Position numbers and translations under genes: made by a program. The notes beneath the pieces were generated by a model that did no database searches, was not told where the DNA came from, and saw only the letters and a list, made by a program, of their open reading frames with translations. This document shows, in pieces, positions 22,276-58,051 of a stretch of 64,000 nt of DNA (positions within the stretch are counted from its first letter, which is position 1; each line of letters opens with the position of its first letter). Origin of the DNA: Propionicimonas paludicola (GTDB lineage Bacteria; Actinomycetota; Actinomycetes; Propionibacteriales; Propionibacteriaceae); contig NZ_PDJC01000001.1 of the NCBI RefSeq assembly GCF_002563675.1, positions 3,100,001 to 3,164,000 on the forward strand, given 5' to 3'.

Positions 22276-22306
22276 CAGTGACCTCCGAGGCACGATTGTG
22301 CTTTAC

Positions 22307-22320
22307 TTTGATCGATCAAA
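22307..22320. promoter_or_regulatory. LacI-type operator 1
   Basis: TTTGATCGATCAAA, a perfect 14-bp palindrome with the central CG typical of LacI-family sites, 31 bases before the lacI start. Confidence 0.8.
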
Positions 22321-22372
22321 CCAGCGGACGCCCCCACATTTCTCAATGATGGACGTTTCGCGATCCACAAGC

Positions 22373-22386
22373 TTTGAACGATCAAA
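22373..22386. promoter_or_regulatory. LacI-type operator 2
   Basis: TTTGAACGATCAAA, one change from operator 1 and centred 66 bases away, on the GH65 side. Two sites would permit looping between them. Confidence 0.8.
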
Positions 22387-22433
22387 TGCCGATCAACCGG
22401 GGCCTGGCCTCGGGCTGAACCTCGGGGGGTTTG

Positions 22434-25354: not shown

Positions 25355-25435
25355 TCGTCCGCGTCTGGTTGGCCGAGGGAGGCTCGGGTAGCCTCATCGG
25401 ATACCGCAACTCCACGACGCAGCGCGGGAGGCAGG

Positions 25436-33214: not shown

Positions 33215-33309
33215 AGCACTCCCTCTGTTTCGATCTCCGATTGCGAGCATAACCGGGCTCGACCCGCTCACTCCGGGAACGGGACCCAGACTGACACAGT
33301 TACGTCCGT

Positions 33310-35254: not shown

Positions 35255-35260
35255 GACGTC

Positions 35261-35266
35261 AGTCTA
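35261..35266 (-). promoter_or_regulatory. -10 box of leaderless GT2 gene
   Basis: TAGACT on the minus strand, 6 bases before the GTG at 35254. Confidence 0.6.
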
Positions 35267-35298
35267 GGGGTAATGGAGTCAGCGAACTCGGCGACGAT

Positions 35299-35316
35299 GA
35301 CCGGGAGTTCCCGGTC
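35299..35316. promoter_or_regulatory. 8-bp palindrome between glf and GT2
   Basis: GACCGGGA-GT-TCCCGGTC, perfect arms with a 2-base centre, 45 bases upstream of the GT2 start and 88 bases past the glf stop. Could be an operator or part of the glf 3' end. Confidence 0.4.
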
Positions 35317-35403
35317 GCGAAGTGGTCGGCCAACCAAACCCTCAGAGGTCAACCACCGCGATCGGCAGGCTGGTCCGCGCGGCCACCGGGCTGCTGGTCG
35401 GGA

Positions 35404-36573
<1,170 letters not shown>

Positions 36574-36770
36574 TCATGCGTGGGGCAGCTGTGGTCGAGC
36601 CTAGCGGTGTCCGGCCGATCGGCGCCCGCCACGGGTTGGGCATGCCGATGGCTACGCCGTCCGCCGTCGCGAGAATGCAGGACCGTCGCCGTCCGGAAGA
36701 TCCGCGAAGCTATGGTTTCGTCTAGCCTCGCTGGTCCGAGGCGCTTAGCCCCACCAATCGGGATCGGAAA

Positions 36771-38192: not shown

Positions 38193-38194
38193 AC

Positions 38195-39646: not shown

Positions 39647-39652
39647 GGGCGC

Positions 39653-39658
39653 AGCATA
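39653..39658 (-). promoter_or_regulatory. -10 box of leaderless gene at 39646
   Basis: TATGCT on the minus strand, 6 bases before the GTG start. Confidence 0.6.
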
Positions 39659-39817
39659 CCTGCGGGATTTCTCAAGGGAGGACCGGATCCGGGTGCCGAT
39701 CGACCATTCGACGTCGGAGGATCCGTCGGGGCTGAGGGGTCACGGCGTGACCCATCTGGGAGGGCGGCACCGGTAGCATGACCGGACAAGATCGCTCTGA
39801 CCCCACAGGACCTCCTC

Positions 39818-42800: not shown

Positions 42801-43048
42801 TCGACGTGGTCGCGGCGGGTGGCCGGGTGATCACCGACGAGGTCGCCGGAATGGTCGACATCTTCGGTGGCGCCGTCCAGAGCTATCGGTCGGTGGAGGA
42901 GCTCAAGCTGCTCTGCTCGGCAGCCGGGGACGCCCGCTATCCCGACGACTCCGAACTGGTCCAGATCGCTGCCCGGGTGGGCCGCGAGCACAGCTTCACC
43001 ACTCGGGCCAAGGCGATGCTCGAAGAGGTGCTCAAGCTGGCCCGTTGA
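39818..43048 (+). CDS. 1076-aa glycosyltransferase with two GT2 domains and a CgeB/GT4-like domain
   Basis: N-terminal region (about 1-245) with FDLDFYRAQQPDAP and HFLTKG, a motif seen at the front of large surface-polysaccharide transferases. GT2 domain A (about 245-450) has VSIIMPAWNRESVIATAV, DDGSSDST and FLDTDNTW. GT2 domain B (about 478-740) has VSIVMPVFNDARMTL, VVVDNGSRPD and FLNNDTLVRPGW. The last 300 residues resemble CgeB/GT4 (LQATDPERFHP, LFVGQARSGGVPRQ, SNRVFDVVAAGGRVITD). All acceptor and donor assignments are open. Domain A has DTD, and B has NND at the metal site. GTG start follows AGGACCTCCTC. It may make a repeat unit alone. Confidence 0.85.
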   Translation: MTRPSAGERHSRQFGATQAGRLGRLATRLQVRGLAPRARLAALSSVGRSAEGNQLLIELLISSGLFDLDFYRAQQPDAPADLRGAANHFLTKGILDLATFHPAILPGYLEPRILGAWLRGDLAEVFRLLTVPGLWHPWSPGFFPPAHVPEASMEGGKAGKRALILADVLQLLAGLGPDSRLRPDPTLGFLTETAWPELRDRAIRTATAHRRQLEHNQPRSAKKWNADRERRWIAATEQLELPASSGEPLVSIIMPAWNRESVIATAVDSIQAQTMHSWELLIIDDGSSDSTATVAEALAAADPRIRLLRGAHAGVCAARNLGLAEARGRYIAFLDTDNTWRPRFLELSVKAMAAQGLEFAYCGSRLTDSETGVRYRGTQVSHETLLMFNHIDLNVTVVGTELLRSVGGFDPSLRRWVDHDLAIRLSAITEPHYLPFIGCDYDDSDDGLPRITTVEGDHWEFVVLGKAWCDWAQAERELPNRVSGRVSIVMPVFNDARMTLNSVDSILANSGDHDIEVVVVDNGSRPDISLALAVALDAVPRVRVERLPRNLNFAIGSNVGAIRSTGELILFLNNDTLVRPGWLDGLLRRIADPDVLGVQPLLLYPDLTIQSAGTLFPGSSEIPAAFLSGFPKDDGRTVGEHRFSAVTAAALLMRAGDVVALRGFDSSFINGMEDIDLCLRAGEGNDRYFAVEPSSEVIHLESRTPGRGARIAENRSLFVQRWRGRLPHDEALYQDHGFEIVHVGVDQFVNPAPRLVLRRFEQSYQHPELGDVPVLRWGIRNPATADSRGDQWGDTHFVAHLAKGLRQNGQQAVETRFCSPVPDSLAYDDVSVVIRGLRRVDPMPGKINVLWVISHPELVTVDELAGFDLVFAASVPWAAKMSTLSGRPVLPLLQATDPERFHPAASQQPHRDAVLFVGQARSGGVPRQIVMDAVAAGVPLEVWGPNWTDLVDPVHLKGDYLNYTELPVRYRQASRVLNDHWSDMAAEGFISNRVFDVVAAGGRVITDEVAGMVDIFGGAVQSYRSVEELKLLCSAAGDARYPDDSELVQIAARVGREHSFTTRAKAMLEEVLKLAR

Positions 43049-44027: not shown

Positions 44028-45491
44028 CTACTTGACCTTCTTGGCCGATGAGGTGGCGGTCGATGGCTGGTAGCCCGGGCTGGTCACCGTGACCTTGACC
44101 GACACCTTCTTGCCCTTGTCCGCCTTGCTCAGCTTGTAGCTGGCTGAGGTCGCCGAGCTGATCTCCTTGCCGTTGCGCAGCCACTGGTACCGAGTCACAG
44201 TGGCATTCGGCGACCACGTCCCCTGGCTGGCAGTGACGGTCTTGCCAACCTTGTGAGTGCCCGACACGCTGGGGCTCTTCTTCTTGGCCAGCGAGGGCAG
44301 CAGGGTCTGCTCGAGATCGGAGACGCTCACCTGCCGGAACACGATCCGGTTCCAATAGGCCTTCTCCGGGGAGTAGCCGTTCTCGTAGACCAGGCCGATG
44401 GTGCCGGCGTCGAGCTGCACCATGTCGGAGTAGCAGGCGGGATCCGTGGTCGATCCCACGGCAAGGCCCGAGCGCCAACTCTGACCGTTGTTCGTGCTGA
44501 CGAAGATCCGCATCCCGCGACGCGAGGTGATCTTGAACGAGGTGTTGGACGGGCTGGAGAACAGCAGCAACTCGCGGCCGCCCGTGGTCTGCAGCAGGCT
44601 GCCTTCCACCGGGACGGTCTTCACTCCGCTCATCAGCGAGAACGATCCGATCGACTCGCCTCCGTTGGTGGAGTAGGCCTGCATTCGGTTACTGCCGGGC
44701 TTGCTCACTCCCTTGCCGTTGTCCCGATAGGCGGTGAGCAGCCGGCCGTCCGGTAGTTCGGCGATGCTGCCCTCGATCAGCTGCTGCTTGCCCGACGCCG
44801 CCCGGTCATAGCCGATCTGCCAGGTGGCACCGTTGTCGTCGCTGTACACGCCGCGGGCGGTGCGCTTGTCGTTCTCGGTGTAGCCCATGGCGAAGATGAT
44901 CCGGCCGGCATGACTGCCCTTGGTCAGGACGATGCCGTGCCCGGGGCCGGTCAGACCGGGGCGCCAGTTCGGCACCGTCACCCGTCCCGAGGTCAGCGAG
45001 GTGAACGAACCGCCGTCGGTGTCGATCCACTGCTGGTGCATGTAGTTGCGGTAGCCGGTCCTGGCCGAGGAGTCCTTGGTCTTCACCGTGGTGATCAGCA
45101 GCACCTTGTCGCGGGCCGGGACGTAGACCGGAACCGGGTTCGAGACCCGGAGCTTGCCGTGGTCGGCGACAATCTTCTCGCCACCCCAGGTGCAGCCACC
45201 ATCTGTGGAGGTCTTCATGGCGATGTCGAAGTCGCCGTCATCGTCATTGTCGGCGTTGTCATTGCGCTTCTCGGCGAAGACGAACAGCCGGCCGTCGGGC
45301 ACGCGCACCACGGCCGGAACTCGATACCGGGTGGCGCTCTTGCTGGTGAACGGTGTGGAACTGCACTCCTGCGGTGCGGCCGCCGCGGCCGTGCCCGGGT
45401 TCAGCACGACAGGCAGCCCGAAAGCAGCCGTCGCTACGGCGAGTGACACTGCTAACTGGAGCTTCAAGTGGAAGTCGGGGGGCTTCTTCAT
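44028..45491 (-). CDS. Secreted GH33 exo-sialidase with C-terminal Ig-like domain
   Basis: 487 aa with a signal peptide (about 1-38, ending AAAA). The six-bladed propeller has a RIP-type motif YRVPAVV, Asp boxes STDGGCTW, SDDNGATW and STNNGQSW, catalytic Glu in EGSIAELPDGRL and Tyr in DPACYSDMVQ. Residues about 400-487 form an Ig-like wall or glycan-binding module (GTHKVGKTVTASQGTW). It should release terminal sialic or related acids outside the cell. No LPxTG anchor is seen, so it is probably secreted. It sits beside genes that make the same class of sugar, suggesting remodelling or turnover. Confidence 0.9.
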   Translation of the reverse strand: MKKPPDFHLKLQLAVSLAVATAAFGLPVVLNPGTAAAAAPQECSSTPFTSKSATRYRVPAVVRVPDGRLFVFAEKRNDNADNDDDGDFDIAMKTSTDGGCTWGGEKIVADHGKLRVSNPVPVYVPARDKVLLITTVKTKDSSARTGYRNYMHQQWIDTDGGSFTSLTSGRVTVPNWRPGLTGPGHGIVLTKGSHAGRIIFAMGYTENDKRTARGVYSDDNGATWQIGYDRAASGKQQLIEGSIAELPDGRLLTAYRDNGKGVSKPGSNRMQAYSTNGGESIGSFSLMSGVKTVPVEGSLLQTTGGRELLLFSSPSNTSFKITSRRGMRIFVSTNNGQSWRSGLAVGSTTDPACYSDMVQLDAGTIGLVYENGYSPEKAYWNRIVFRQVSVSDLEQTLLPSLAKKKSPSVSGTHKVGKTVTASQGTWSPNATVTRYQWLRNGKEISSATSASYKLSKADKGKKVSVKVTVTSPGYQPSTATSSAKKVK

Positions 45492-45711
45492 GGGGTGCTC
45501 TACTCAGTCGATTGCAGACTTTGGGGAATTCTTCGGGGGCACCTGACGAGACCAACCGAATGCACGCGGGGCGGACCCCGGCGGACATCTCGGCTGGGTT
45601 CGGTCGCGCCAGGCTGGTTCCAGTGAAGCAGCTAGGCGCGCTGCAAGGGAAGGCAGAGTGAGGAAATGGTCTTACCGATCGAGGATCGCCGGCGGAGGGC
45701 CGACGGCCGGA

Positions 45712-46995
45712 TCAGTGCCGGACGATCGCGCGCAGCCGTCGGTATGCGTCGCCGGGCAGAAGGGCCATTCCCAGCTGTGCTGCCCGTCGGCGGAGCTCGT
45801 CGATCCGTGGCCGATAGGTGGTGCCGCGGGCCGCAGGACGCTGGGCGACCGACGGCATCTTCTTCCGGGCCTCGTGAATGGCCAAGCGACTGGACAAGTA
45901 GCCGTCGCGGGAGCAGATGGCGCTGGGACGTTCCGACGGATCGATGTCGAGAAGCTCGGTGACCCGCTTCAGGATCCGTTCGGCCGGGGCTAACTCGTCC
46001 ACCGAGACGAACACGTCGGCCAGCCAGGACGGGTCCGGGGTCGGCAGCAGGTCGGCGATCAGCTTGTCGAAGCTGACGATCAGGCCGGAGTTGATCAGCA
46101 CGTGGTTGCCGTGCTTCTCGTGGACGCCGAAGTCGCCGATGAACGCGGTACGCACCCCGGCGCCGATCGATTCCAGAGCTGCGGTCGAGGACACCGTGAG
46201 CAGCAGATCGACTCTGCCCAGCAGATCGGTGATCGGCTCGTAGGTGATCTCGAAGTTGACCGGGGCGGCCGGCAGCATCTTGATGGCCGCCTCCGGGTGC
46301 AGTTCGGCCCGGTGGAAGGTGCTCTCCTCCGGCCGGTGGCGCGGCTTCAGCAGCACTCGGCGATCGGGGTGAGCGGCCGCGTAGTCGAACAGGCGCTGGT
46401 AGAGGTAGGTGCGATCCCAGCTGTCTCTGGGGATGGTCGGTTGGTCGGCGAGCAGCACCGTCCGGATCGGGCCGGTCTTCATCTCGGCCGGATGGATCGG
46501 CAGCAGCGGCAGCCCGCTGAGCAGCAGGTTGTCCGCAGGGATCTCCAGCCGCTGGCCGGCGTTCAGGAACTCCCGCAAGTTGTCGGCGGAGTTGACCGCG
46601 ATCACGTCCGAGCGGGCTCGGTCCAGGTAGCCGGCGACGATCTTCTCGATGATGATCCCGACCCAGCCCGTGACGACCACGGGCTCGCCGGACGGACGGG
46701 GCTGATCCCGCCGCAGCAGGGCCAAGTCATCGGTGAATCGCTCGACCAGCGGACCCTGCAGCGAGAGGATCACGCAGTCGGCCTCGCGGGCGGCAACCAG
46801 CAGTTCGTTCCACGGCATCAACTGGTAGCCGGCGGCACCGGCGGCGCTCAGCTGATCGTCGGAGATGGCATGGCGCAGGTCGGAGGGCACCAGCACTGAC
46901 CAGGTCCAGCCGGCCGCCTCGAACTGTTTCGCCAGCCCGACGGCCCACTTCATTTGAGAGTCGTAGGCCGCAACGACCACCAGTTCTCGGGTCAT
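45712..46995 (-). CDS. DUF6716-type putative glycosyltransferase
   Basis: 427 aa from ATG 46995, with GGAGGAAG upstream; the frame open to 47100 is not supported. It has a GT-B-like layout with alternating beta-alpha segments; the C-terminal half holds VLLKPRHRPEES and LLLTVSSTAALESIGAG followed by FIGDFGVHEKHGNH, which recall the capsule polymerase/polysialyltransferase nucleotide-sugar site. I recall this family as DUF6716 beside neuA and neuB in actinobacteria. It is divergent from a paralogue at 47209 that shares the SSTAA...DFGV...GNH segment. Confidence 0.75.
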   Translation of the reverse strand: MTRELVVVAAYDSQMKWAVGLAKQFEAAGWTWSVLVPSDLRHAISDDQLSAAGAAGYQLMPWNELLVAAREADCVILSLQGPLVERFTDDLALLRRDQPRPSGEPVVVTGWVGIIIEKIVAGYLDRARSDVIAVNSADNLREFLNAGQRLEIPADNLLLSGLPLLPIHPAEMKTGPIRTVLLADQPTIPRDSWDRTYLYQRLFDYAAAHPDRRVLLKPRHRPEESTFHRAELHPEAAIKMLPAAPVNFEITYEPITDLLGRVDLLLTVSSTAALESIGAGVRTAFIGDFGVHEKHGNHVLINSGLIVSFDKLIADLLPTPDPSWLADVFVSVDELAPAERILKRVTELLDIDPSERPSAICSRDGYLSSRLAIHEARKKMPSVAQRPAARGTTYRPRIDELRRRAAQLGMALLPGDAYRRLRAIVRH

Positions 46996-47196
46996 TCGCG
47001 AGCTTCCTCCCAGTTGTCCTGCACGCACCTGCATCGTCGGCAGCCGGCAGTTCGACCGGTGATGCAGCGCGTCCTGACGGCGTAGACAGCCAGTAGGCAA
47101 TCATAGACATCGGCCGCGCGAGCCGCCTTCAGCGGGGGCCGTCCGGGGAGTCTGTGCATTCGTTAAGGAACTTCTCAGCATTCCCGGCCCCCATGG

Positions 47197-47202
47197 TAGG
47201 GT
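47197..47202 (+). promoter_or_regulatory. -10 box of the nonulosonic-acid operon
   Basis: TAGGGT followed by 6 bases and ATG 47209; leaderless start of the operon 47209-53368. Confidence 0.6.
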
Positions 47203-47208
47203 CCAGCT

Positions 47209-48477
47209 ATGCGGCAAGCTGGCCTCCTGGACGCTCCCAGAGTGGCTGTGCTAGCCGACACCGACAGCCGCTGGAAATGGGCGCTGGCCACCGCGAACTC
47301 TCTGAGTCCTGGCTCGTTGCGCTGCTATCTGCGTCCGGGGCCGCAACTCCCCAGTGAGCGCCAACTACGCGAGTCGGGCGTTGATCCGGCTGACGTCACC
47401 GAAGTGTCCCTGGGTGACCTGGTGGACGTGGTGGCCGCCGACGAATGCGACGTGGTGATTCTCGGTCTTGGCGGAGATGCCGTCCAGGCGGTGCTGCAGT
47501 CCTTCGCGGCGCGCTGGACGGGGCCGTCCCGGCCGATCCTGGTGGCTGGCTACGTCGGCATCGTCTATGAGCGGCTGGTCGAAGGTCTGTACCAGCGAGC
47601 CGGCGCCGATGTGGTGATCGCCAACAGCCCCGCCGACGCGCGCAGCTTCGCCGACCTGCTGACCGCGATCGGCTTCGATCCGTCCGCGGTGGTCACCGAG
47701 CCGCTGCCGTTCCTGGCCGAGGCTTCTCCCGGAGCGGCCGCCGAGGGCACCGCCCTCACTTTCGCGGCCCAGCCGGAGGTGCCCAGCCGCAAAGAGGACC
47801 GTCGTTATCTGGTCTCTCGCCTGATCGAGCACGCCCGGCGGCACCCGGAGCGTCCGGTCCTGCTCAAGGTGCGCGGGCTGGCCGGAGAGTCCCTCACCCA
47901 CCCGGAGCCATATCCCTACCAGCGACTCGTGCAGCAGTTCGGCGGTGAGCTCCCGGCCAACTTTGAGGTGGTGGCCGGCTCGATGAGCGATGCTCTCGAC
48001 CGCACCGCCGTCCTGGTCACCGTGTCGAGCACGGCCGCGGCCGAGTCGATCCATCGCGGCATTCCGACCGCGATCCTCACCGACTTCGGGGTACGCGAGG
48101 GCCTCGGCAACCACTTCTTCGCCGGGTCGGGCTGCTACGCCAGTTTCGATGAACTGGACGAGGGGGTGCGTCCGACGGCCGACCGGGAATGGGCGGCCGC
48201 ACATGGGCTGGTCGCCATGCAGCGCGGTGCGCTGGCCGAGCGGATCGCCGCCTTGCGCAGCACCGAGTTGCCGGCGGTCAGCCCGTACTTCTCGCGTCGG
48301 CGGAGCCCGGTCTATCTGGGACGAATGCTCTCCGACCATGGTTTGGACAGCCAGGCCCGTCCATTGCACGACGGGTCCCGGCGGCGGGGGCGCTTCGCCA
48401 GTGCCGTGGCCCGCAGGCTTTACCGTGCCGGCGCTGCGATCGTCGCACCGGCCCTTCGGCGACTAGGAGAAGGATGA
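47209..48477 (+). CDS. DUF6716-type putative glycosyltransferase (paralogue)
   Basis: 422 aa. N-terminal VAVLADTDSRWKWALATANSL parallels the start of the divergent paralogue. The C-terminal half has VLLKVRGLAGES, LVTVSSTAAAESIHRG and ILTDFGVREGLGNHFFAG. First gene of a tight plus-strand operon; it overlaps the CMP-sialate synthetase start (ATGA), so product and partner are made together. Likely transfers or polymerises the CMP-activated sugar; direct proof is lacking. Confidence 0.75.
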   Translation: MRQAGLLDAPRVAVLADTDSRWKWALATANSLSPGSLRCYLRPGPQLPSERQLRESGVDPADVTEVSLGDLVDVVAADECDVVILGLGGDAVQAVLQSFAARWTGPSRPILVAGYVGIVYERLVEGLYQRAGADVVIANSPADARSFADLLTAIGFDPSAVVTEPLPFLAEASPGAAAEGTALTFAAQPEVPSRKEDRRYLVSRLIEHARRHPERPVLLKVRGLAGESLTHPEPYPYQRLVQQFGGELPANFEVVAGSMSDALDRTAVLVTVSSTAAAESIHRGIPTAILTDFGVREGLGNHFFAGSGCYASFDELDEGVRPTADREWAAAHGLVAMQRGALAERIAALRSTELPAVSPYFSRRRSPVYLGRMLSDHGLDSQARPLHDGSRRRGRFASAVARRLYRAGAAIVAPALRRLGEG

Positions 48478-49661
48478 CAGTGCAGGGTGGTTCCGCGTCG
48501 GTGGTCGCAGTGATCCCGGCCCGCGGCGGATCGAAGGGGGTACCGGGCAAGAACCTGGCCCCGGTGGCCGGGGTGCCGCTGGTGGTCCGGGCGATCCGGG
48601 CCTGCCTGGCAGCCGGCCGGGTCGACGAGGTCGTGGTCTCGACCGATGACGAGGGGATCGCCGCCGTCGCCGAGCGGGCCGGAGCGATCGTTGTGCGTCG
48701 GCCCGCCGAACTCGCCAATGACACCGCATCCAGCGAGGCCGCGCTGCGGCACGTCCTTCAGGTGCGCTACCCGGATCAGGCGCCGGAGGTGCTGCTGCTG
48801 GTGCAGTGCACCAGCCCGTTCATCACCGCGGCCGAAGTGGACGAAGTGGTGGCCGCCATCCTCGAGCGCGGCGCCGACTCGGCGTTCACCGCGGCCCCCT
48901 TCCACGGCTTCATCTGGCGCGTGGACGACTCGGCCTACGGGGTCAACCACGATCACCGGACCCGGCCGCGCCGCCAGGAGCGTCCGGCCGAGTACCTGGA
49001 GACCGGGGCGGCCTACGCCATGCGGACCGAGGGCTTCCTGGCCGCCGGGCATCGCTTCTTCGGCAACGTCCAGGCCGTTCCCACCGACCCGGCGCGGGTC
49101 CTCGAGATCGACGAGCCGGACGATCTGGCCCGGGCCCGGGCGATCGCCGGCCTGCTGGAGACCGAACGTCCGGTGCTGGCCAAGGGTGCGGTGCAGGCCG
49201 TCGTTCTGGATTTCGACGGCACCCAGACCGATGACCGAGTCTGGATCACTGCGGACGGGGTCGAGCAGGTGGCCGTCCATCGTGGCGACGGAATGGGCAT
49301 CGCCGCCCTGCGGGACGCGGGGCTGCCGATCCTGATCCTGTCCACCGAAGTCAACGATGTGTTGACCGCACGCGCCAAGAAGCTGCGGATCGAGTGCGTG
49401 CATTCGGCCGTCGAAAAGCAGTCGGAACTGCGCGCCTGGTGCCGTCGGGTCCACGTCGACCCCGAGGCCGTGGTGTACGTTGGCAATGATTTGAACGATC
49501 TGGGATGCCTGCAGATTGTTGGTTGGCCCGTCGCGGTCGCCAACGCTCACCCCGCCGTGAAGCAGGCAGCGGCCTGGACAACTGCGGCTTCCGGAGGTCA
49601 CGGCGCGGTCCGCGAGGTAGCCGCCTGGATTCTGGGAGAGGATCTCAGTGGTGGTCGGTAA
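48474..49661 (+). CDS. neuA: CMP-nonulosonate (sialic acid) cytidylyltransferase fused to HAD phosphatase
   Basis: 395 aa from ATG 48474, with AGGAGAAGG upstream. Residues 1-235 are the CMP-sialate/KDO synthetase fold: VIPARGGSKGVPGKN nucleotide loop, LLVQCTSPFITAAEVDEVV, YLETGAAYAMR. Residues 240-395 are a KdsC-like HAD domain with its catalytic set intact: DFDGTQTD, ILSTE, a Lys in VEKQSELRAW, and VGNDLNDLGCL. The fusion order resembles vertebrate CMAS. An active phosphatase domain could remove the 9-phosphate before activation, pointing to a phosphorylated intermediate pathway, though this is inference. The symbol denotes the synthetase half only. Confidence 0.88.
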   Translation: MTVQGGSASVVAVIPARGGSKGVPGKNLAPVAGVPLVVRAIRACLAAGRVDEVVVSTDDEGIAAVAERAGAIVVRRPAELANDTASSEAALRHVLQVRYPDQAPEVLLLVQCTSPFITAAEVDEVVAAILERGADSAFTAAPFHGFIWRVDDSAYGVNHDHRTRPRRQERPAEYLETGAAYAMRTEGFLAAGHRFFGNVQAVPTDPARVLEIDEPDDLARARAIAGLLETERPVLAKGAVQAVVLDFDGTQTDDRVWITADGVEQVAVHRGDGMGIAALRDAGLPILILSTEVNDVLTARAKKLRIECVHSAVEKQSELRAWCRRVHVDPEAVVYVGNDLNDLGCLQIVGWPVAVANAHPAVKQAAAWTTAASGGHGAVREVAAWILGEDLSGGR

Positions 49662-50559
49662 CTCTTCAAGCCCGCGGGTGCGGCTGATCGGCGATCGTCC
49701 GGTTGGTGAGGGTCACCCGGCCTACCTGATCGGCGAGATCGGGATCAATCACAACGGTGACCTGGAAACAGCGCTGCAGCTGGTTCACCAGGCCAAGGCC
49801 GCCGGCATGGACGCGGTGAAGTTCCAGAAGCGGACCCCGGAGATCTGCACGCCGCGGGACCAGTGGGATATCGAGCGGGAGACCCCGTGGGGTCTGATGA
49901 CCTACATCGAGTACCGGCATCGCGTCGAGTTCGGTGAGGACGAGTACCGGGCCATCGACGAGCACTGTCGCGAGTTGGGCATCGACTGGTTCGCTTCCCC
50001 GTGGGACGTTCCGAGTGTGGAGTTCTTGAAGGGCTTCGACTCACCGGTCTACAAGATCGCGTCCGCCTCACTTACCGATGACGAACTGCTCAGCGCCACC
50101 AGGGAGACCGGCAAGCCGGTGATCCTGTCCACCGGCATGTCCACCCCGGAGCAGATCGACCACGCCGTCGGCGTGATCGGCACGGAGAACCTGATCCTGC
50201 TGCACGCGAACAGCACCTATCCGGCACCGACCAACCAGCTCAACCTGCGGATGATGCACACCCTGATGGCGCAGTACCCGGACGTCCCGATCGGCTACTC
50301 CGGCCACGAGGTCGGCCTGCAGACCACGGTCGCCGCCGTCGCCCTGGGCGCCTCGGTGATCGAGCGACACATCACTTTGGATCGGACGATGTGGGGTTCG
50401 GACCAGGCGGCTTCTGTGGAGCCGGTCGGTATGCATCGGCTGGTCCGGGACATTCGGGCAGTCGAGTCCGCCCTCGGTGATGGGGTAAAGCAGGTCTATC
50501 CGGGAGAGCTGGCCGCGATGAAGAAGCTGCGGCGGGTCGCCGGTTCCGATGCATCCTGA
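49648..50559 (+). CDS. neuB: N-acetylneuraminate synthase family protein, lacking the SAF domain
   Basis: 303 aa. TIM barrel with IGEIGINHNGDLETALQLV, DAVKFQKRTPE, FASPWDVPSVEFL, ILSTGMSTPEQID, IGYSGHEVGLQTTVAAVALGASVIERHITLDR. It condenses phosphoenolpyruvate with an N-acyl-hexosamine to form a nine-carbon sugar. The chain stops at the point where the C-terminal antifreeze-like SAF domain of usual NeuB (about 345 aa) would start. In classical NeuB the SAF domain reaches into the partner active site, so substrate choice may differ. GTG start overlaps neuA by 14 bases; RBS GAGAGGA. Confidence 0.9.
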   Translation: MVVGNSSSPRVRLIGDRPVGEGHPAYLIGEIGINHNGDLETALQLVHQAKAAGMDAVKFQKRTPEICTPRDQWDIERETPWGLMTYIEYRHRVEFGEDEYRAIDEHCRELGIDWFASPWDVPSVEFLKGFDSPVYKIASASLTDDELLSATRETGKPVILSTGMSTPEQIDHAVGVIGTENLILLHANSTYPAPTNQLNLRMMHTLMAQYPDVPIGYSGHEVGLQTTVAAVALGASVIERHITLDRTMWGSDQAASVEPVGMHRLVRDIRAVESALGDGVKQVYPGELAAMKKLRRVAGSDAS

Positions 50560-51598
50560 GCCGAGCACTCTCGCCCTCGTGGAGAGCCCCGTTCAGCTCC
50601 TCCACGTTCTTGAGTGGTGCGCCTGGCACCAGAGCAAAGACCTGCGCCTCGCAGTGCTGTCGCCACGCGATGCGCACGGACGAGACCAGCTGGCCACCAT
50701 GCGCACGCTGGCCCAGGACTCCGGCATCGATGTGGTCTGGCTGGATCCGCGGGTATCTCGGTTCGCTCCGCTCGGCGCCTGGCGGAAGCTGCGTCGCTGG
50801 GCAGGTGAGGCCGACCGAGTCGTGGTCGGCGACCCGTTCTCGGGCCTGATTCAGAGCGTCCTGGTCACCACTCGGATCGAGAAGGTGACGGTGATCGATG
50901 ACGGCACCGCGACCATCGATTTCGCCGAACTTCTCCGCTCGCAGGAGCCGCTGTTGCGCTGGACGGTGCGCCGGGGCTGGGTGACTCACGCGATCCGCAC
51001 GCCACTGGCGCGGCGCGCCAACCGGTACCTCGGGCAGCTGGGTCCGGACGCACTGGAACTGTTCACCGTGATGCCGATCTGCGATCTGCCGCACGCCACG
51101 GTGACCCGGCACCGCTACCAGTGGACCCGGCGCCGGTTCGGACCGCCCACTCTGCACAACGGGGTGACCGTTGTCGGAAGCTCCTTGGTGGAAAGCGGAC
51201 TGCTGTCGGAGGAGGTCTACCTTCAGGCGATCACCGAGCAGCTCGACGTCCTCGGTGCGCCGGGCGGGGTGTACATCAGCCATCGGCGCGAACGTTCCAG
51301 CAAGGTCCGCCGGCTGATCGCGGCCACCAAACTGAAGCTAGTCACCTCACAGCTGCCCTTGGAGATCGAACTTCGCAAGGGTCCGGTCGGCCGGGCCGTG
51401 ATCTGCTTCCCCTCCACCCCGGCCTTCACCCTGCCGCTGGTGCTCGACGGTGCCGGCACCCGGCTCAGGGTGGTGCCGCTCCGGGCGTCCCGGCTCAGCC
51501 CGCAGGCCGAGCCGCGGGCCAGAGACTTCCTGTTGCGGATCGGCGCGCAGGTGAGTCCGGACGACGCCGCCGGCGACGAACGGGCGGACCACCGGTGA
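50549..51598 (+). CDS. Polysialyltransferase-like protein (GT52/alpha-2,8-polyST-like)
   Basis: 349 aa. The N-terminus, LALVESPVQLLHVLEW, is that of bacterial polysialyltransferases and related GT52-like enzymes. YISHRRERSSKVRRLI and GRAVICFPSTPAFTLPLVL correspond to the phosphate-binding His/Arg and Ser-Thr-Pro regions of that group. It overlaps neuB by 11 bases. Predicted to add the CMP-activated nonulosonate to an acceptor or growing chain. No signal peptide or transmembrane segment; cytosolic or peripheral. Confidence 0.72.
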   Translation: MHPEPSTLALVESPVQLLHVLEWCAWHQSKDLRLAVLSPRDAHGRDQLATMRTLAQDSGIDVVWLDPRVSRFAPLGAWRKLRRWAGEADRVVVGDPFSGLIQSVLVTTRIEKVTVIDDGTATIDFAELLRSQEPLLRWTVRRGWVTHAIRTPLARRANRYLGQLGPDALELFTVMPICDLPHATVTRHRYQWTRRRFGPPTLHNGVTVVGSSLVESGLLSEEVYLQAITEQLDVLGAPGGVYISHRRERSSKVRRLIAATKLKLVTSQLPLEIELRKGPVGRAVICFPSTPAFTLPLVLDGAGTRLRVVPLRASRLSPQAEPRARDFLLRIGAQVSPDDAAGDERADHR

Positions 51599-51629
51599 AC
51601 CCGAGTCGGGGCGATCAGGACCGGCAACG

Positions 51630-52607
51630 ATGACCTCGCTGGTCGATGTCATCGTGCCGCTGCACGACGCCGCAGAGCACCTGCCAGTCTTCTTGGCCAG
51701 TGTGCAGGTGAACTCACCGGCCGGTTGCCGCTACCTGGTGATCGATGACGGGTCTCGGGACGGCTCGACCGAGCTTCTGGACGCCGCGGCCGCTCGGCTG
51801 CCGTCGCTGGAACTGCATCGGCTGGAGCACTCGGTGGGGGTGGCCGCCGCCCGCAACGCGGCCCTGGAGCTCGTCGATGCCGAGTACCTGGCCTTCGTCG
51901 ACGCCGACGACTGGATGGCCCCGGAGCGGCTCTCTCAGCTGATCGCCGCTCACCGGCGCACCGGTGCGGCCATCCTGCGCACCGACCACGTCCGGGTGAA
52001 CCGCTACCGGCGGATCCCCGAGGTCGCGCCCAGCGAGCTGCGTGAGGTCGCCTTCCCCGCCGGTGACGGCATCGGCGACGCGGGCGGACGGACGTTGGTC
52101 GACTATCCCTACTTGTGGGCCGGGATGTTCGACCTGGCGCAGCTACCGCCGCTGTCCGAGCTGCGCTTCGACCCGTCGCTGCGTACCGCCTCGGATCGGC
52201 CCTGGTTCTGGCGGCTCCACCTGCTCGAGTTGAGCGTCGCGGTGGTTGCGGCACCGAGCTACTTCTACCGGCGCAGCCCGGGCCAGGCATCCCTGACCGA
52301 GTTGGGGGACGATCGACTGCTGGACATCCTGGACGCGATGCGGCAGGTCCTGGCCCTCGCGGCGGCGTCCGGAGTTCCCGCCTACCGGCGTCGGGCGGCC
52401 TTCACGACGGTCCGGATGATTGCGCGCCACGTGTCCGCTCGGGGTCGCCTCGACGCGGACCAACAACACGAACTGGTCCGCCGGGCGGCCGAGTTGCTGG
52501 CCGAGATCGACGCGGACGACCTGGCGGCGGCTCTGGAGCTGGTCCGTCCGGAGCAGGCCGAGGTGGCCCAGGCGCTGTGCGCGGCCGGTCGAAGGTGGTC
52601 GGAATGA
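51630..52607 (+). CDS. GT2 glycosyltransferase of the nonulosonic-acid operon
   Basis: 325 aa. GT-A start VDVIVPLHDAAEHLPVFL, nucleotide region VIDDGSRDGSTELL, and metal motif LAFVDADDWMAPERL (DADD), all standard for GT2 chain-building enzymes. No membrane helices. Lies 31 bases after the polysialyltransferase-like gene and overlaps the next gene (ATGA). Acceptor and donor unknown. Confidence 0.88.
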   Translation: MTSLVDVIVPLHDAAEHLPVFLASVQVNSPAGCRYLVIDDGSRDGSTELLDAAAARLPSLELHRLEHSVGVAAARNAALELVDAEYLAFVDADDWMAPERLSQLIAAHRRTGAAILRTDHVRVNRYRRIPEVAPSELREVAFPAGDGIGDAGGRTLVDYPYLWAGMFDLAQLPPLSELRFDPSLRTASDRPWFWRLHLLELSVAVVAAPSYFYRRSPGQASLTELGDDRLLDILDAMRQVLALAAASGVPAYRRRAAFTTVRMIARHVSARGRLDADQQHELVRRAAELLAEIDADDLAAALELVRPEQAEVAQALCAAGRRWSE

Positions 52608-53368
52608 CCAACGCGATCATCGTGGCCTCCGGAGGCCAACTCGCCGTGGCCGTGGCGGCCCTGACCGGCGGAGCCCTCGATCCGGAGTCCACCACCGTGG
52701 TGGTGGTCAGCCCCGGCGAGGCGGCCGAGGTCCAGACCGAGCTGATCGAGGCGGCTCGGATCGTGGCCCGGCGACACCGGCTGCGGCTGGTCCATCTCAA
52801 CGAGGTCCTGACCCCGTTCCATCCACTCGGCTGGCGTGCGGCCGACCTGGAGGCGACGCAGTTCGCGGACGCCTGGGCGGCCGCCGGCGGCTTGGCCGCC
52901 ACCACGGTGCTGCACTGCTTCGGCTCCGGCGACCCCGCGCAGCGCGGCCTGGCCCGGGTCCTCGGCGCTCAGCGCCGCCGGATCGCCGATACCGCGCGCG
53001 AGGCCGGAGTGGCGCTGCGTCGCGCACGTGAGCCGCGACTGCTGGCCGGCGGTGGGGCGGGCCTGGCCGTGCTGATTCGGCTGCGGGCGGCCCAGGTGGG
53101 TCAGATCACCGGGCGTCGGATCGCCCAGGCCGCCGCTGAACTGGCCGAGCTCGGGGTGGCTCAGCCGGTGCCGTCCGGTGCCATCGCGCTGTGGCGTGGG
53201 CCGCTGTGGCACGGACTTCTCCGGGGACGTCAGGACGTCCGACCGGTCGACGCCACTGCCGGGGTTGAGCAAACCCCCGACAGTGGCGAGTCGGCGCTGG
53301 ACTTCGTCCGCCGCTGTATCGAGGATCTCGATGCGCAGCGAGGAGCCGGCTCAGACCGTCTGAGCTGA
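52604..53368 (+). CDS. Unknown protein at the end of the nonulosonic-acid operon
   Basis: 254 aa from ATG 52604, coupled to the GT2 stop. A Rossmann-like beginning (NAIIVASGGQLAVAVAALTGG, then TTVVVVSPGEAAEV) suggests a nucleotide or nucleotide-sugar fold, but there is no motif I can name. The middle is Arg/Ala-rich and helical. Its end overlaps the convergent CPBP protease gene by 18 bases. Given its place it may be a transferase, modifying enzyme or export factor for the polymer. Confidence 0.65.
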   Translation: MTNAIIVASGGQLAVAVAALTGGALDPESTTVVVVSPGEAAEVQTELIEAARIVARRHRLRLVHLNEVLTPFHPLGWRAADLEATQFADAWAAAGGLAATTVLHCFGSGDPAQRGLARVLGAQRRRIADTAREAGVALRRAREPRLLAGGGAGLAVLIRLRAAQVGQITGRRIAQAAAELAELGVAQPVPSGAIALWRGPLWHGLLRGRQDVRPVDATAGVEQTPDSGESALDFVRRCIEDLDAQRGAGSDRLS

Positions 53369-54310
53369 GCGCGGCTGTGGCGGGAACCGCCAGGCGATGA
53401 TGGCCAAGATGGTCAGTACGGCGACCAGAAGCCAGCCCATCGGCAGCGCGATGAACAGGTCTCCGCCAATGATCAGCAGGGCGAAGATCCCGATGGTCCC
53501 GTTGTAGGCGCCATGCAGCATGGCCGGGGCCAGCACCGAGCCGGTGCGCTCCTTCACCCAGGTCAGCAGGAAGCTGAGCGGGACCGTCCAGGCCACCATC
53601 ATCGGCACTCCGAGCGCCCACTGGTCGCCGTAGTTGTGGCCCATCAAGATGATGATCGGCGCATGCCACAGCCCCCACAGCACGCCGATCACCAGGTTGG
53701 AGCGCAGCACGCCGAGCGGACGCAGTTCGCCGGCCAGCACCCCACGCCAGCCGTACTCCTCGCCGAAGGCGAAGAGGGCATTGATGGTGATGCCGGCGAG
53801 CGCACCCTGGAGCAAGAGGGTGGCAGCAAGCGCGGCCGGATCCGGCAGGGCGACCTTCGGACTCAATCCGGGCGAGATCTCCAGGAGCCGCTGGCGCAGC
53901 TCATCGGTGCTCGTGGCGAGGTGGCCGGCCCCGGGGATGCCGAGGACCGGAGCCAGCCAGGCCGCGGCAAAGCCGACCAGCAGGATCGCGATCATCACGG
54001 CCAGGCTGGTGCCGGCATTGCGGGCGTAGGTCCGGAAGAAGTGGTGCCGCAGTGCGGCCCACTCCTCAGCGATCAGCGGACGCCGCCGGTCCAGCCGCTC
54101 GACGATCAGGCCGGCCACGATGGGCAGCGGCATGTAGAACACGGCAGTGACCGTCTGAGTGATCACAGCCAGTGAGGCCGGCAGGACCTGACGGATCCCC
54201 CAGATGCCCAGTCCGACCACGATTGCGCCACCGAAGGCGATCCCGTAGTACTGGGCAACTCGCTTCCAAGCGACACTCCGCCAACGGGAGGTCGCGACAT
54301 CCACACTCAT
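53351..54310 (-). CDS. CPBP-family intramembrane metalloprotease (CAAX protease-like)
   Basis: 319 aa with about 8 transmembrane segments. The family motifs are intact: FGEEYGWRG (EExxxR), then LWGLWHAP with the His, and LHGAYN with the last conserved His. The family includes Rce1 and bacteriocin-immunity proteases. It is the last gene in a PadR-controlled operon of three coupled genes. Target unknown. Confidence 0.88.
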   Translation of the reverse strand: MSVDVATSRWRSVAWKRVAQYYGIAFGGAIVVGLGIWGIRQVLPASLAVITQTVTAVFYMPLPIVAGLIVERLDRRRPLIAEEWAALRHHFFRTYARNAGTSLAVMIAILLVGFAAAWLAPVLGIPGAGHLATSTDELRQRLLEISPGLSPKVALPDPAALAATLLLQGALAGITINALFAFGEEYGWRGVLAGELRPLGVLRSNLVIGVLWGLWHAPIIILMGHNYGDQWALGVPMMVAWTVPLSFLLTWVKERTGSVLAPAMLHGAYNGTIGIFALLIIGGDLFIALPMGWLLVAVLTILAIIAWRFPPQPRSAQTV

Positions 54311-55167
54311 TTCTTTCCTCCGAGATCACGAGATTGTTCTGCGGTGCGTCCGGCCCTGGCTAGGCCGAACAGCACTGCTCCAGCCGGCACCCAGGCAGCA
54401 GCCAGCACCAGCGGACCGGCCCACGGGCGGGCCTTGCCGTCGGTTGCGGCGGTTCGCCACACGGTGAGCCAGGCAGAGATGGAGGCCGCCGTGGTGGCGG
54501 CGGCGATGGCGCCGGCAGCGCGTGGGCCGCTCTTGCCGGAGCCGACCAACCAGCCGGCCCAGGCGGTCGGGACGGCGGCCACGGCAATGTCGAGTGCGGC
54601 TGCGGCAGGAGTCGGAACCCAGTCGCTGGGACGTCCCGCGGCGTCGATCTGGTTGGGCAGCCGATCCGGCAACCCAGGGCCGCGGACGACGTAGTGAGCC
54701 ACCACCGCTGCGGTCAGCGCGGCCGGGACGAGCACGGCGGTCCGGAAGGCCGTGGCCGGGGTGCTCTCGAACGGCTCGTCCTCGGCGTCCGGCTCGATCA
54801 GGCCGAGCTTCACGGCGGCCGCACCGAAGTTGAGCGTCCAGCCCAGCCCGAAGACGCGCGGGACGAACAGGCGCTCGTCGCGCGGGTTCCACCAGACGCG
54901 GGCCATCTTCTCCCCGGTCGGCGGGGTCAGGTCGAGCGGAACCCCGAAGCGTCCAGGCTCGGCGGCCTCGGCTTCACCGAGAGTTGCGGCCAGGGCGGCG
55001 ACATCGTCTGGCCGGGCAGAGGCGTCCAGGTGGTCGGCGAAGTGGGCGGCCAGCGCCTCGCGCACGGCCTGCCGATCCTCGGCCGCCACCGGGGCGACCA
55101 GGGCGTCCAACTTCGCGTTGAGCGCAGCCTGGGTCTTGGGTGCGAGCTCAGCGAGGGAACCGATCAC
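54307..55167 (-). CDS. Membrane protein with HAAS-like N-terminus and DUF5808/DUF1648-like parts
   Basis: 286 aa. The first 75 residues form an alpha-helical stretch like HAAS domains that bind PadR partners; residues about 85-120 hold WWNPRDERLFVPRVFGLGWTLNFG (DUF5808-like); then a transmembrane segment, the PNQIDAAGRPSDW motif (DUF1648-like) and three more membrane helices. HAAS proteins with PadR regulators form membrane signalling pairs in Gram-positives. Overlaps the genes on either side by 4 bases. Confidence 0.72.
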   Translation of the reverse strand: MIGSLAELAPKTQAALNAKLDALVAPVAAEDRQAVREALAAHFADHLDASARPDDVAALAATLGEAEAAEPGRFGVPLDLTPPTGEKMARVWWNPRDERLFVPRVFGLGWTLNFGAAAVKLGLIEPDAEDEPFESTPATAFRTAVLVPAALTAAVVAHYVVRGPGLPDRLPNQIDAAGRPSDWVPTPAAAALDIAVAAVPTAWAGWLVGSGKSGPRAAGAIAAATTAASISAWLTVWRTAATDGKARPWAGPLVLAAAWVPAGAVLFGLARAGRTAEQSRDLGGKK

Positions 55168-55505
55168 TTCTCTACCTCCACGATCGTGCGAATGGCGGCG
55201 GCCAGCTTGGTGAAGGTGGCCGCCATGCCGGCCAGGGCGTCCTGCCCGGCCGGGGTGAGCGCGTAGTACTTGCGGGGTGGTCCGACCGGCGACTCCTGCC
55301 AGGTCGAGCTGATCAGGCCGGCCCGGGCCAACCGGGCGACCAGTGGGTAGACCGTGCCGGCGGTGATCGCCAGCTCGGGCTGGGCCGCCAGATCGTCCAC
55401 CAACTGCGAGCCATAGCGGGGTTCGCGCGCCAGCAGGCCGAGTACGGCCAGCTCGACGACGCCCTTGCGCAGCTGCGAGCCCCAGCCTTCCTGTTCCTTG
55501 TCCAC
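55164..55505 (-). CDS. PadR-family transcriptional regulator
   Basis: 113 aa, the short PadR subfamily: LRKGVVELAVLGLLAREPRYGSQLVDDL helix-turn-helix, then LYPLVARLARAGLISSTWQ-type wing and RKYYALTPAGQDAL. Leaderless GTG 55505. A dyad overlaps the -35 region, so it probably represses its own operon with the HAAS-like and CPBP genes. Confidence 0.92.
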   Translation of the reverse strand: MDKEQEGWGSQLRKGVVELAVLGLLAREPRYGSQLVDDLAAQPELAITAGTVYPLVARLARAGLISSTWQESPVGPPRKYYALTPAGQDALAGMAATFTKLAAAIRTIVEVEK

Positions 55506-55511
55506 GCCTTG

Positions 55512-55517
55512 ATGGTA
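55512..55517 (-). promoter_or_regulatory. -10 box of the padR operon
   Basis: TACCAT on the minus strand, 6 bases before the GTG start. Confidence 0.6.
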
Positions 55518-55524
55518 ATGCCAG

Positions 55525-55545
55525 CTACCTTGTGATGCAAGCTAG
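55525..55545. promoter_or_regulatory. Candidate PadR operator
   Basis: CTACCTTG-N5-CAAGCTAG, arms complementary except one base, 7 bases upstream of the -10 box and over the expected -35 region. Position fits autorepression. Confidence 0.55.
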
Positions 55546-55642
55546 CTGGTGTCGCAAGGTTCCATCAGGCCGCGGCCCCGTCGCGAGTTGTTCAACCGCC
55601 GGTTGCCGACTGTTCGCAACCGAGAGCTAGCCTCCGGCACAA

Positions 55643-58051
55643 ATGGATGTTGTGAATGCCGCCCAGGTGAGCCTGGCCTCACCGGCAACTCCCACACCGG
55701 GATCGACCGTCTTCCTGGCCACCAGGGAGCATGGCTTGGCCATGTGCCTGGCCATCGCAGAGCGGCTCGGGGTGCCGGTGGCCGACCGGATCCTGGTGGT
55801 CGCCGATACCAGCCGTAGCTACGAGGTGCAGCCGTCCTTCCCGGTCGAGCAGCGGGCCGGCTATCTGGACGCATTCGCCACAGTCGTCGACTGGAACCAG
55901 CTGATCTGGCCGGAGCGGGCCCAGGGATGGACCTGTCAGCCCGGCACGGCAGAGGCCAAGCTCTTCGCTGCGGCAGTGGTGCCCTCCGGACGGACTGTCG
56001 ATCGGCTGGTGCTGGAGTCCATCCAGGTGCCGCCGGCGGCCGCGCTGGCCGCCCTGTTCCCACGGGCGGAACTGCAGCTCTACTCCGACGGCCTGATGAC
56101 CTACGGCGGACGTCCGCTGGAGTTCAGCCTGGTCGGCCGGGTGACGGCCATGCACTACCGCGACCTGTTGGGTGGCGTCCGGCCGCGGCTGCTCAGTCAG
56201 GCCGACGCCATCGAGGATCAGCCGTACCCGATTGCCGACGTCGAAGCCTTCAGCGTCCATCGCCATCCCGGGGCGGCCGTTGCCGAGGTGACCGGCCCGA
56301 CCGCGGTGGTGCTGCTGCAGTATCTGGCCCACCTCGGTCTGCTCAGCCGCGCCCGTGAGCTGACCCTCAACCGGCGAATGATCGAGGCGGCACTGGCCTC
56401 GGGCGCCGAGCAGGTTCTGGTCAAGGCGCACCCCGCACAGGCCGGTGACCTGGCCGGACTACTCGCCGATCCGCGGGTCCGTCCGTTCGCCGGCGGTGGA
56501 TCCCTGGAGTCGTGGCTGATCGGGCTCTCCCCGGCGGAACGCGCGCAAGTCACCGTGTTCAGCGCCTTCTCCACCGGCCTGCTCGGGGCCCGTCAGCTGG
56601 GGGCCGGCGCCGTGGCCGTGGGCACTGCGGACTTGCTGGCACACCTGCCGGCCGGCGACGGCAACCGGATCCCGGTGGCGATCTGTGATGCGCTGCTGCC
56701 GCGGGTGACGATGACCGGGACGCCGACCATCCAGCCGTCCCGCTTCGGCATGGACGAACTCGAGCTGCTGCTGGACCTGCTCAGCTTCACCAACGATCCG
56801 GCCGGACGCTGGCGCTCCCGCACCGATGTGGCCGCGCGGCTCTTCGCCCTGCCGACTGAGCGGCGGCAGCTGTTCACCGACTACCTGGCCGATGGCGATC
56901 TGCGACTGCTCGGGCTGTTCGAGGCCGACGAGGAGCCGATCACCGAACCGACCCCGCTGCGTGAGTCGGCGCCGCCGGATCGTCCGGTCGACCTCGAGCC
57001 CGGCGAGATCGCCCTCAGTGTGGTGATCCCGGCGCACAACATCGGCAACTACTTCGCGGGGCTCAAGGCCAGCATCCTCGGCAACCGCAGCGCCGACATC
57101 GAGTGGGTGATCGTCGACGACGGTTCCAGCGACGGCACTCGGCAGCTGCTCGAGACCCTGGCCGAGCAGTTCGGGGAGGTGCGGGTGCTGCACCATGACC
57201 GGGCGCTCGGGCCGTCCGCCGCCCGCAACAACGGGATCCGGAACGCCCGCGGTCGCTACATCGCCTTGATGGACGCCGACGACTGGGTGGCGGTCAACTA
57301 CTTCCCGGCGCTGCGGGACCAGGCATTGCAGCACGGTGCCGATCTGCTCCGGGTCGGCTACTTCGAGGTGATCGGCGGCAAGACCATCGTCCGGCGCCAG
57401 CCGGTGCCGCGCCAGGACGTCCCGCTGCCCGCCCGGGAGCTGCTGATGCCGGTCGACCAGAGCGCCGCGGTCGACCTGCCCCAGCCCTGGCTGAACGTGT
57501 GCCGCCGCGACTTCCTGCTCGCCAACGGGCTGTTCTTCGACGAGGAGCTGCACACGGCAGAGGACCGCGAGTGGACCTGGCGAGTCTTCCTCAGGGCGGC
57601 CTCGGTGGTCAGCTCGAGCACGGTCGGCTACTTCTGGCGGCGTGAGGTGCGCGGCTCGCTGACCCAGATCGGTGATGCCCGCCAGCTGCACTATCTGGCC
57701 GCCTATCAGAAGGTGGCCGTGCTGGTCGCCAGTGGCTCCGAGCGGCACTACCTCCCCAAGGTGCACCGGTCGATGGTGGCCATCGGGCTGAGTCATCTGG
57801 AGCGGTCCGAGCGGTTGCAGCCCAAGCTCCGGCTGGTCGCCGTGCGGGATCTGCGCCGTGCCCTGCGCAAGCTCAGCGAGCCCGAGCTGATCCTGGCTAC
57901 CCAGGGCCTGTCGTTCCGGCGGGCCCGGATGCTGAGGATGCTGCGACAAGGCGTCCCGGCACCGCTGGTCCTGCTGATGGCCGGAGGCCGCTCCGCAGTC
58001 CGCGGGCTGAGCCGAGCCGTCTTCGGCGGACAACCCGCGGCCCAGCGCTAG
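55643..58051 (+). CDS. Fusion of polysialyltransferase-like domain and GT2 domain
   Basis: 802 aa. Residues about 20-400 are polysialyltransferase-like: STVFLATREHGLAMCLAIAERL, ELQLYSDGLMTYGG, QVLVKAHPAQAGDLAGLL with the His-Pro of that group, and TVFSAFSTGLLGARQLG with the Ser region. Residues about 455-800 are a GT2 domain: LSVVIPAHNIGNYFAGL, IVDDGSSDGTRQLL, LMDADDWVAVNYF, plus AEDREWTWRVFLRA. One chain with two transferase types could make an alternating polymer or prime and extend one. The start is two or so bases from the likely transcript start (TAGCCT 9 bases before ATG). Confidence 0.8.
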   Translation: MDVVNAAQVSLASPATPTPGSTVFLATREHGLAMCLAIAERLGVPVADRILVVADTSRSYEVQPSFPVEQRAGYLDAFATVVDWNQLIWPERAQGWTCQPGTAEAKLFAAAVVPSGRTVDRLVLESIQVPPAAALAALFPRAELQLYSDGLMTYGGRPLEFSLVGRVTAMHYRDLLGGVRPRLLSQADAIEDQPYPIADVEAFSVHRHPGAAVAEVTGPTAVVLLQYLAHLGLLSRARELTLNRRMIEAALASGAEQVLVKAHPAQAGDLAGLLADPRVRPFAGGGSLESWLIGLSPAERAQVTVFSAFSTGLLGARQLGAGAVAVGTADLLAHLPAGDGNRIPVAICDALLPRVTMTGTPTIQPSRFGMDELELLLDLLSFTNDPAGRWRSRTDVAARLFALPTERRQLFTDYLADGDLRLLGLFEADEEPITEPTPLRESAPPDRPVDLEPGEIALSVVIPAHNIGNYFAGLKASILGNRSADIEWVIVDDGSSDGTRQLLETLAEQFGEVRVLHHDRALGPSAARNNGIRNARGRYIALMDADDWVAVNYFPALRDQALQHGADLLRVGYFEVIGGKTIVRRQPVPRQDVPLPARELLMPVDQSAAVDLPQPWLNVCRRDFLLANGLFFDEELHTAEDREWTWRVFLRAASVVSSSTVGYFWRREVRGSLTQIGDARQLHYLAAYQKVAVLVASGSERHYLPKVHRSMVAIGLSHLERSERLQPKLRLVAVRDLRRALRKLSEPELILATQGLSFRRARMLRMLRQGVPAPLVLLMAGGRSAVRGLSRAVFGGQPAAQR

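Follow-up and report, generated by a model that had tools for sequence, protein, structure and literature searches.

Group 2 capsule loci for polysialic acid (E. coli K1, Neisseria) carry NeuB, NeuA, a polysialyltransferase and NeuC, with a SAF-bearing NeuB and a linked capsule exporter. A second relevant system is the teichulosonic acid cluster of Streptomyces coelicolor, reportedly the subject of Ostash et al. 2014. In the excerpts of the papers cited here and below, this cluster (SCO4873-SCO4882) is PhoP-controlled (PMC13011467) and its product is a phosphate-free polymer of galactose and 2-keto-3-deoxynononic acid (Kdn), a relative of sialic acid, with methyl groups reported (PMC7831098, PMC11481543). 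Elsewhere, the route from mannose-6-phosphate through Kdn-9-phosphate and Kdn to CMP-Kdn is proven (PMC6200933). The locus at 44028-58051 of a 64,000-nucleotide stretch of the Propionicimonas paludicola chromosome (the window; 3,100,001-3,164,000 of a genome of 3.26 Mb in one contig, completeness 98.5%) was compared with these systems. It is likely to be a teichulosonic-acid-type locus for a Kdn polymer. An earlier note on this DNA had described a nonulosonic-acid polymer locus with polysialyltransferase-like enzymes in an actinomycete; this description held, and all genes named in it were present at about the positions given. Its statement that such polymers are little described in the phylum did not hold, as the excerpts name the cluster SCO4873-4882 and describe Kdn polymers as the major wall glycopolymer of S. 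coelicolor (PMC7831098, PMC11481543, PMC13011467).

The core of the locus comprises four forward-strand genes. It opens with DUF6716 b (47209-48477; PF20471, E 7.9e-110), a putative glycosyltransferase, followed by NeuA-HAD (48474-49661, start taken as the ATG at 48474), a fusion of a CMP-nonulosonate synthetase (PF02348) with a HAD phosphatase, a NeuB-family synthase (49648-50559; PF03102, E 6.5e-81) and PST (50549-51598), a glycosyltransferase of polysialyltransferase-like fold. Successive core genes overlap by 4, 14 and 11 bases. Downstream on the same strand lie a family 2 glycosyltransferase (GT2) gene (51630-52607; PF00535, E 6.6e-23), a gene overlapping it by 4 bases (52604-53368), and a fusion (55643-58051) of an N-terminal polysialyltransferase-family (polyST) domain (PF07388, 35.1 bits; the sole match in the genome) to a C-terminal GT2 (PF00535, 100 bits), the two GT2 sequences being 28% identical.

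Conservation was followed in 20 fetched relative loci (L026-L045), 16 of them from the same genus (L026-L040, L045), and in a set of named loci, mostly from Streptomyces, which were the best 80 of 581 confirmed loci ranked by NeuB. In 72 of the 80 named loci DUF6716, NeuA-HAD, NeuB and PST followed one another in this order on one strand; six of the remaining eight were cut by contig ends and the other two were L100 and L101. Divergent GT2 and polyST genes were additionally present in 63/80. Identity to the Streptomyces-type loci was 70-73% for NeuB and 58-63% for NeuA-HAD. The four-gene core also recurred across the 16 same-genus loci with gaps: NeuA was not found in L027, PST was not found in L026, and DUF6716 was not detected beside NeuA in L031, L033 and L034. 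Whole or partial NeuA-HAD matches (E <= 1e-30) were found in 90 of 393 genomes of the class. The co-evolved unit proposed in the earlier note thus stands for the four core genes, which recur in relatives as a set, and fails for the sialidase and the accessory genes.

The gene at 52604-53368, listed as unknown in that note, scored 17.0 bits (E 5.4e-5) against a profile built from polyST proteins of the named loci (500 shuffles reached 3.1 bits at most), with only positions 15-84 aligned, and is a probable truncated or degenerate polyST remnant. Together with the GT2 at 51630 it mirrors the GT2-polyST gene pair of Streptomyces. The polyST-GT2 fusion, with polyST first, is shared with L026, whereas in Streptomyces the two are separate genes. 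Through its Streptomyces relatives, the S. coelicolor cluster thus shares with the window the core order and the GT2 and polyST genes, and also a nearby BMP/ABC nucleoside transporter, as found at the usual site of the window genus; the window copy differs in sitting elsewhere, in the fusion, and in its second DUF6716, probable truncated polyST and sialidase. In the annotation of S. coelicolor, SCO4878 is a putative glycosyltransferase, SCO4879 a conserved hypothetical protein, SCO4880 a putative transferase and SCO4881 polysaccharide biosynthesis related (PMC2267785, excerpt). These names fit GT2, DUF6716, NeuA and NeuB of the Streptomyces loci, a number-to-gene match that we infer from relatives rather than from S. 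coelicolor itself.

The identity of the sugar was approached through its precursor supply. No UDP-GlcNAc 2-epimerase (NeuC/WecB, Epimerase_2) scored over cut-off anywhere in the genome, the AGE epimerase family lying outside the search; such enzymes were found in 11/14 control genomes. One weak Epimerase_2 match (19.1 bits) looked by eye like a GT28-like lipid glycosyltransferase. NanE, present in 8/14 control genomes, was not found in this one, while mannose-6-phosphate isomerase was present. The absence of NeuC noted earlier in the locus hence extends to the whole genome at family cut-offs. The earlier note had also tied its polymer to an intact epimerase supply; the lack found here bears on N-acetylneuraminic acid (Neu5Ac) and leaves Kdn untouched. 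The window NeuB has 303 residues and no SAF domain. Among 17 aligned NeuBs, SAF was matched in one, which by its length (352 aa) is the control L044 from a Kribbella-like genome; the other 16 are 297-313 aa. In N. meningitidis NeuB the SAF-domain residue Arg314 contacts N-acetylmannosamine and the R314A variant is inactive (PMC6795526, excerpt).

The HAD half of NeuA-HAD is nearest to PDB chain 3mmz, which we take to be from S. avermitilis. Residues matching Glu56, Arg64 and Lys67 of chain 3e81, presumably the B. thetaiotaomicron phosphatase BT1713, are kept in 106 of 107 NeuA-HAD rows (102 distinct). Glu56 and Lys67 are taken to set specificity for Kdn. At positions 56 and 67, four KdsC-like PDB chains show Arg/Ala, Ala/Gln, Arg/Asp and Arg/Glu, and none has the Glu/Lys pair. 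Chains with position 56 changed, or both 56 and 67, are also deposited in the PDB; this shows only that such variants exist. Neither KDN9P nor BT1713 appeared as a term in papers among the matches listed. The Kdn-9-phosphate pathway of B. thetaiotaomicron (BT1714) likewise comprises a synthase, a HAD phosphatase with Glu56/Lys67 and a CMP-Kdn synthetase (PMC6200933, excerpt); in the window, phosphatase and CMP-transferase form a single protein.

As judged from these sequences, the product is probably Kdn and not Neu5Ac, and the missing NeuC is expected because the locus would be of teichulosonic type with Kdn as its product. The term polysialic-acid-like in the earlier note is accordingly unsupported: the evidence favours Kdn made from mannose-6-phosphate, a route that needs no NeuC. 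We consider it very unlikely that the locus makes a Neu5Ac-based polysialic acid with its precursor from salvage or an unrecognised epimerase. The NeuB and polyST families, the PST fold nearest to polysialyltransferases and the resemblance of DUF6716 to UDP-GlcNAc 2-epimerases would suit such a polymer, but in a 98.5% complete single contig neither NanE nor, over cut-off, NeuC/WecB was found (AGE again lying outside the search), NeuB is without SAF, and the fusion of a HAD phosphatase to NeuA suggests a route through a 9-phosphate. Neu5Ac polysialic acid was rejected as the likeliest product on the absence of epimerase supply over cut-off, the absence of SAF and the HAD fusion. Compared with group 2 loci, the window shares NeuB, NeuA and a polysialyltransferase-like enzyme (PF07388 and the PST fold) and lacks a NeuC/NanE supply, SAF in NeuB and a linked capsule exporter; of the teichulosonic features it has the four-gene core, GT2 with a PF07388 polyST, and, by its genes, a NeuC-free Kdn precursor route. 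A nonulosonic acid of the legionaminic or pseudaminic type has a next to negligible chance of being the product: the CMP-transferase domain was scored best by PseF (126.6 of 205.7 bits), but PseI (217.2 of 340.25 bits) was below cut-off and weaker than NeuB, and no enzymes for pseudaminic or legionaminic amino sugars were among the Pfam/NCBIfam matches of the block, which was the extent of that search.

Several observations weigh against a teichulosonic-type Kdn locus. PDB chain 6ncs, named sialic acid synthetase, is also short (290 aa). One row, L042, is the sole exception of the 107 in lacking the Glu/Lys pair, and the role of that pair in Kdn specificity is taken as background. The KDN-9-P phosphatase model NF058599 gave 82.6 bits against a cut-off of 180 and was outscored by KdsC at 99.4 bits; NeuB_NnaB gave 255.8 bits, below its cut-off of 399.65. 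The curated family models, all scoring below cut-off, do not settle the identity of the sugar. The fold match of PST is modest (TM 0.54). DUF6716, with its best fold matches to UDP-GlcNAc 2-epimerases, might conceivably have a hidden epimerase role. An excerpted Planobispora table names the SCO4880 homologue "sialic acid synthase", one gene off the match given above (PMC8269224). Lastly, the divergent promoter region at window 46990-47215 has no GTTCACC, a sequence that 52/63 Streptomyces-type promoters contain; a PHO-box repeat search performed poorly on its own Streptomyces control, with matches in 7/74 named loci and then in 0/63.

The transferases were examined by structural models and profiles. 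PST had no Pfam match at E 0.1, and neither PST nor the polyST half of the fusion found a relative by PDB sequence search, PST being placed by fold search. Its AlphaFold model (pLDDT 92.8) had as best PDB folds the polysialyltransferase chains 5wcn and 5wc6 (TM 0.54 and 0.53, 10-11% identity), then sialyltransferase 2yk6; 5wcn is a polysialyltransferase with CDP. PST carries an invariant DDG, an invariant HR and a conserved FPS, which resemble the D/E-D/E-G, HP and S motifs known from bacterial sialyltransferases. DUF6716 b gave a GT-B-like model (pLDDT 88.4), its fold nearest to UDP-GlcNAc 2-epimerases and plant-type glycosyltransferases; no paper using the term DUF6716 was found in the literature searched.

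From the gene set we infer substrate identity, sugar order, export and wall attachment, and likewise the part played by the sialidase. NeuB, proposed as a Kdn-9-phosphate synthase, would condense mannose-6-phosphate with phosphoenolpyruvate to Kdn-9-phosphate. NeuA-HAD is proposed as a CMP-Kdn synthetase joined to a Kdn-9-phosphate phosphatase, the HAD half of which would release Kdn and the CMP-transferase half of which would convert Kdn to CMP-Kdn. PST is proposed, on its model, as a Kdn transferase; the GT-B enzymes (DUF6716, PST, polyST) and the GT2 enzymes would build an acidic, phosphate-free polymer from CMP-Kdn and other nucleotide sugars. The polymer would probably be exported by an ABC pair encoded elsewhere and attached to peptidoglycan by LCP ligases. 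The earlier note saw no exporter, and none is present in the block; a candidate permease/ATPase (Wzm/Wzt-like) pair near 2,558 kb, unlinked to the locus, is similar to exporters of the galactan/teichoic kind (77 and 176.5 bits, under cut-offs of 380 and 320), and a search for the Wzt_C domain found none. Four LCP ligase matches are present in the genome, also unlinked to the locus. It is improbable, though less so than a Neu5Ac polymer, that the Kdn made here is attached to a glycolipid, a glycoprotein or a branched exopolysaccharide and does not build up a teichulosonic acid bound to the wall. The extra DUF6716, the polyST-GT2 fusion and the probable truncated polyST differ from the Streptomyces set, the methyltransferase and acyltransferase 3 genes of Streptomyces locus L135 have no visible counterpart in the block, and the block has no exporter; the core order is nevertheless that of the Streptomyces loci, and LCP ligases, though unlinked, are encoded.

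The genome holds two NeuBs of the same family. The second belongs to a DUF6716-NeuB-PST set without NeuA at 423-427 kb (423471-426911), between nucleoside transporter/adenosine deaminase genes and PHO4. In the NeuB tree the window copy groups with L026 (100/97), and these two join the pair of the second copy and L027 (96/87), the latter two being without adjoining NeuA. The L027 genome, which is also that of named locus L101, has a single NeuB match with no NeuA adjoining. The usual site in the genus is beside the phosphate transporter gene: PHO4 is in the fetched stretch of 15/16 same-genus loci and adenosine deaminase in 12/16, often with a BMP/ABC nucleoside transporter, and BMP/ABC transporter genes are in the fetched stretch of 11/11 loci of one family (f20) of large, Streptomyces-like genomes. 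The window copy lies instead between enoyl-CoA hydratase and GDPD. It may be a duplicate that moved to this site, after which the old site would have lost NeuA; the second NeuB locus, if active, would depend on the window NeuA-HAD.

A GH33-type, secreted-looking sialidase (44028-45491, reverse strand; BNR_2/BNR_3) with a C-terminal repeat domain lies beside the core. It aligns across the domain with sialidase 1eur, and Arg, Glu and Tyr positions, which we take to be catalytic, were kept by eye. The same gene set was to be sought in relatives according to the earlier note; the core recurred there and the sialidase was not near NeuB. No sialidase-domain match was found in the NeuB neighbourhoods of the 20 fetched and 80 named loci, L040 giving one match to the C-terminal repeat only, and the sialidase was rejected as part of a conserved unit, not being near NeuB in any fetched relative. 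Strong sialidase-domain matches (49-60% identity) occurred in nine same-genus relatives (G002, G003, G004, G007, G008, G018, G022, G025, G028), three with an internal TGA. In G008 and G028 the sialidase and NeuB share a contig, 275 and 567 kb apart, while in the other seven they are on different contigs. The NeuB neighbourhoods of eight of the nine held no sialidase-domain match, and G003 was covered by a short locus only. Within the genus, the sialidase was found in 9/18 NeuB-bearing genomes and in 0/11 without NeuB (Fisher p 0.005, kinship not controlled); among genomes at least 90% complete the counts were 4/11 and 0/5 (p 0.24). Counts were read by hand, with G005 counted as NeuB-bearing on a 99-residue fragment and G013, with only a 35% NeuB, counted as without; genomes beyond the matches listed were counted negative from their best E-value, which is what the C-terminal repeat gives. 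This repeat (window 44028-44290, residues about 400-487) was matched many times over in the genomes of this genus, at sites within long open frames. It is a speculative and rather doubtful idea that the 44028 enzyme is a secreted Kdnase dedicated to trimming or recycling a Kdn wall polymer which the organism itself produces; if true, a bacterial Kdnase would here be linked to a wall polymer of the same cell.

DUF6716 a (45712-46995; PF20471, E 2.8e-79), a second putative glycosyltransferase, is divergent from DUF6716 b (34% identity) and, like the sialidase, is on the reverse strand. A reverse-strand cassette (53351-55505) of an Rce1-like protease (53351-54310), a DUF5808 protein (54307-55167) and a PadR regulator (55164-55505), with no evident link to glycan synthesis, splits the polyST-GT2 fusion from the other block genes. 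The listed genes do lie together, as the earlier note had it, apart from this cassette and the change of strand. All nine listed glycan genes are open through to a single terminal stop, with third-position GC of 0.80-0.89. Neighbouring glycan genes at window 31994-43048 include a UDP-galactopyranose mutase (35404-36558), GT87, weak GT87-like, PMT_2-like and GT2 genes, and the gene of a 1076-aa protein that combines two GT2 stretches with a GT1-like end; these are possibly a galactan-type wall polymer set. At window 19928-27622 the genes of two glycoside hydrolase family 65 enzymes lie near each other, and a LacI-type regulator and a protein with a Dak1 domain are encoded in their vicinity.

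Among the matches listed, no paper on nonulosonic acids named Propionicimonas or Micropruina. The locus looks like a variant of the Streptomyces Kdn wall-polymer cluster rather than a new system. On this reading a Streptomyces wall-polymer pathway would extend to the Propionibacteriaceae and the missing NeuC would be explained, and testable roles would follow for DUF6716 and for the family of PST, by position like SCO4882, as GT-B enzymes that assemble the Kdn polymer.

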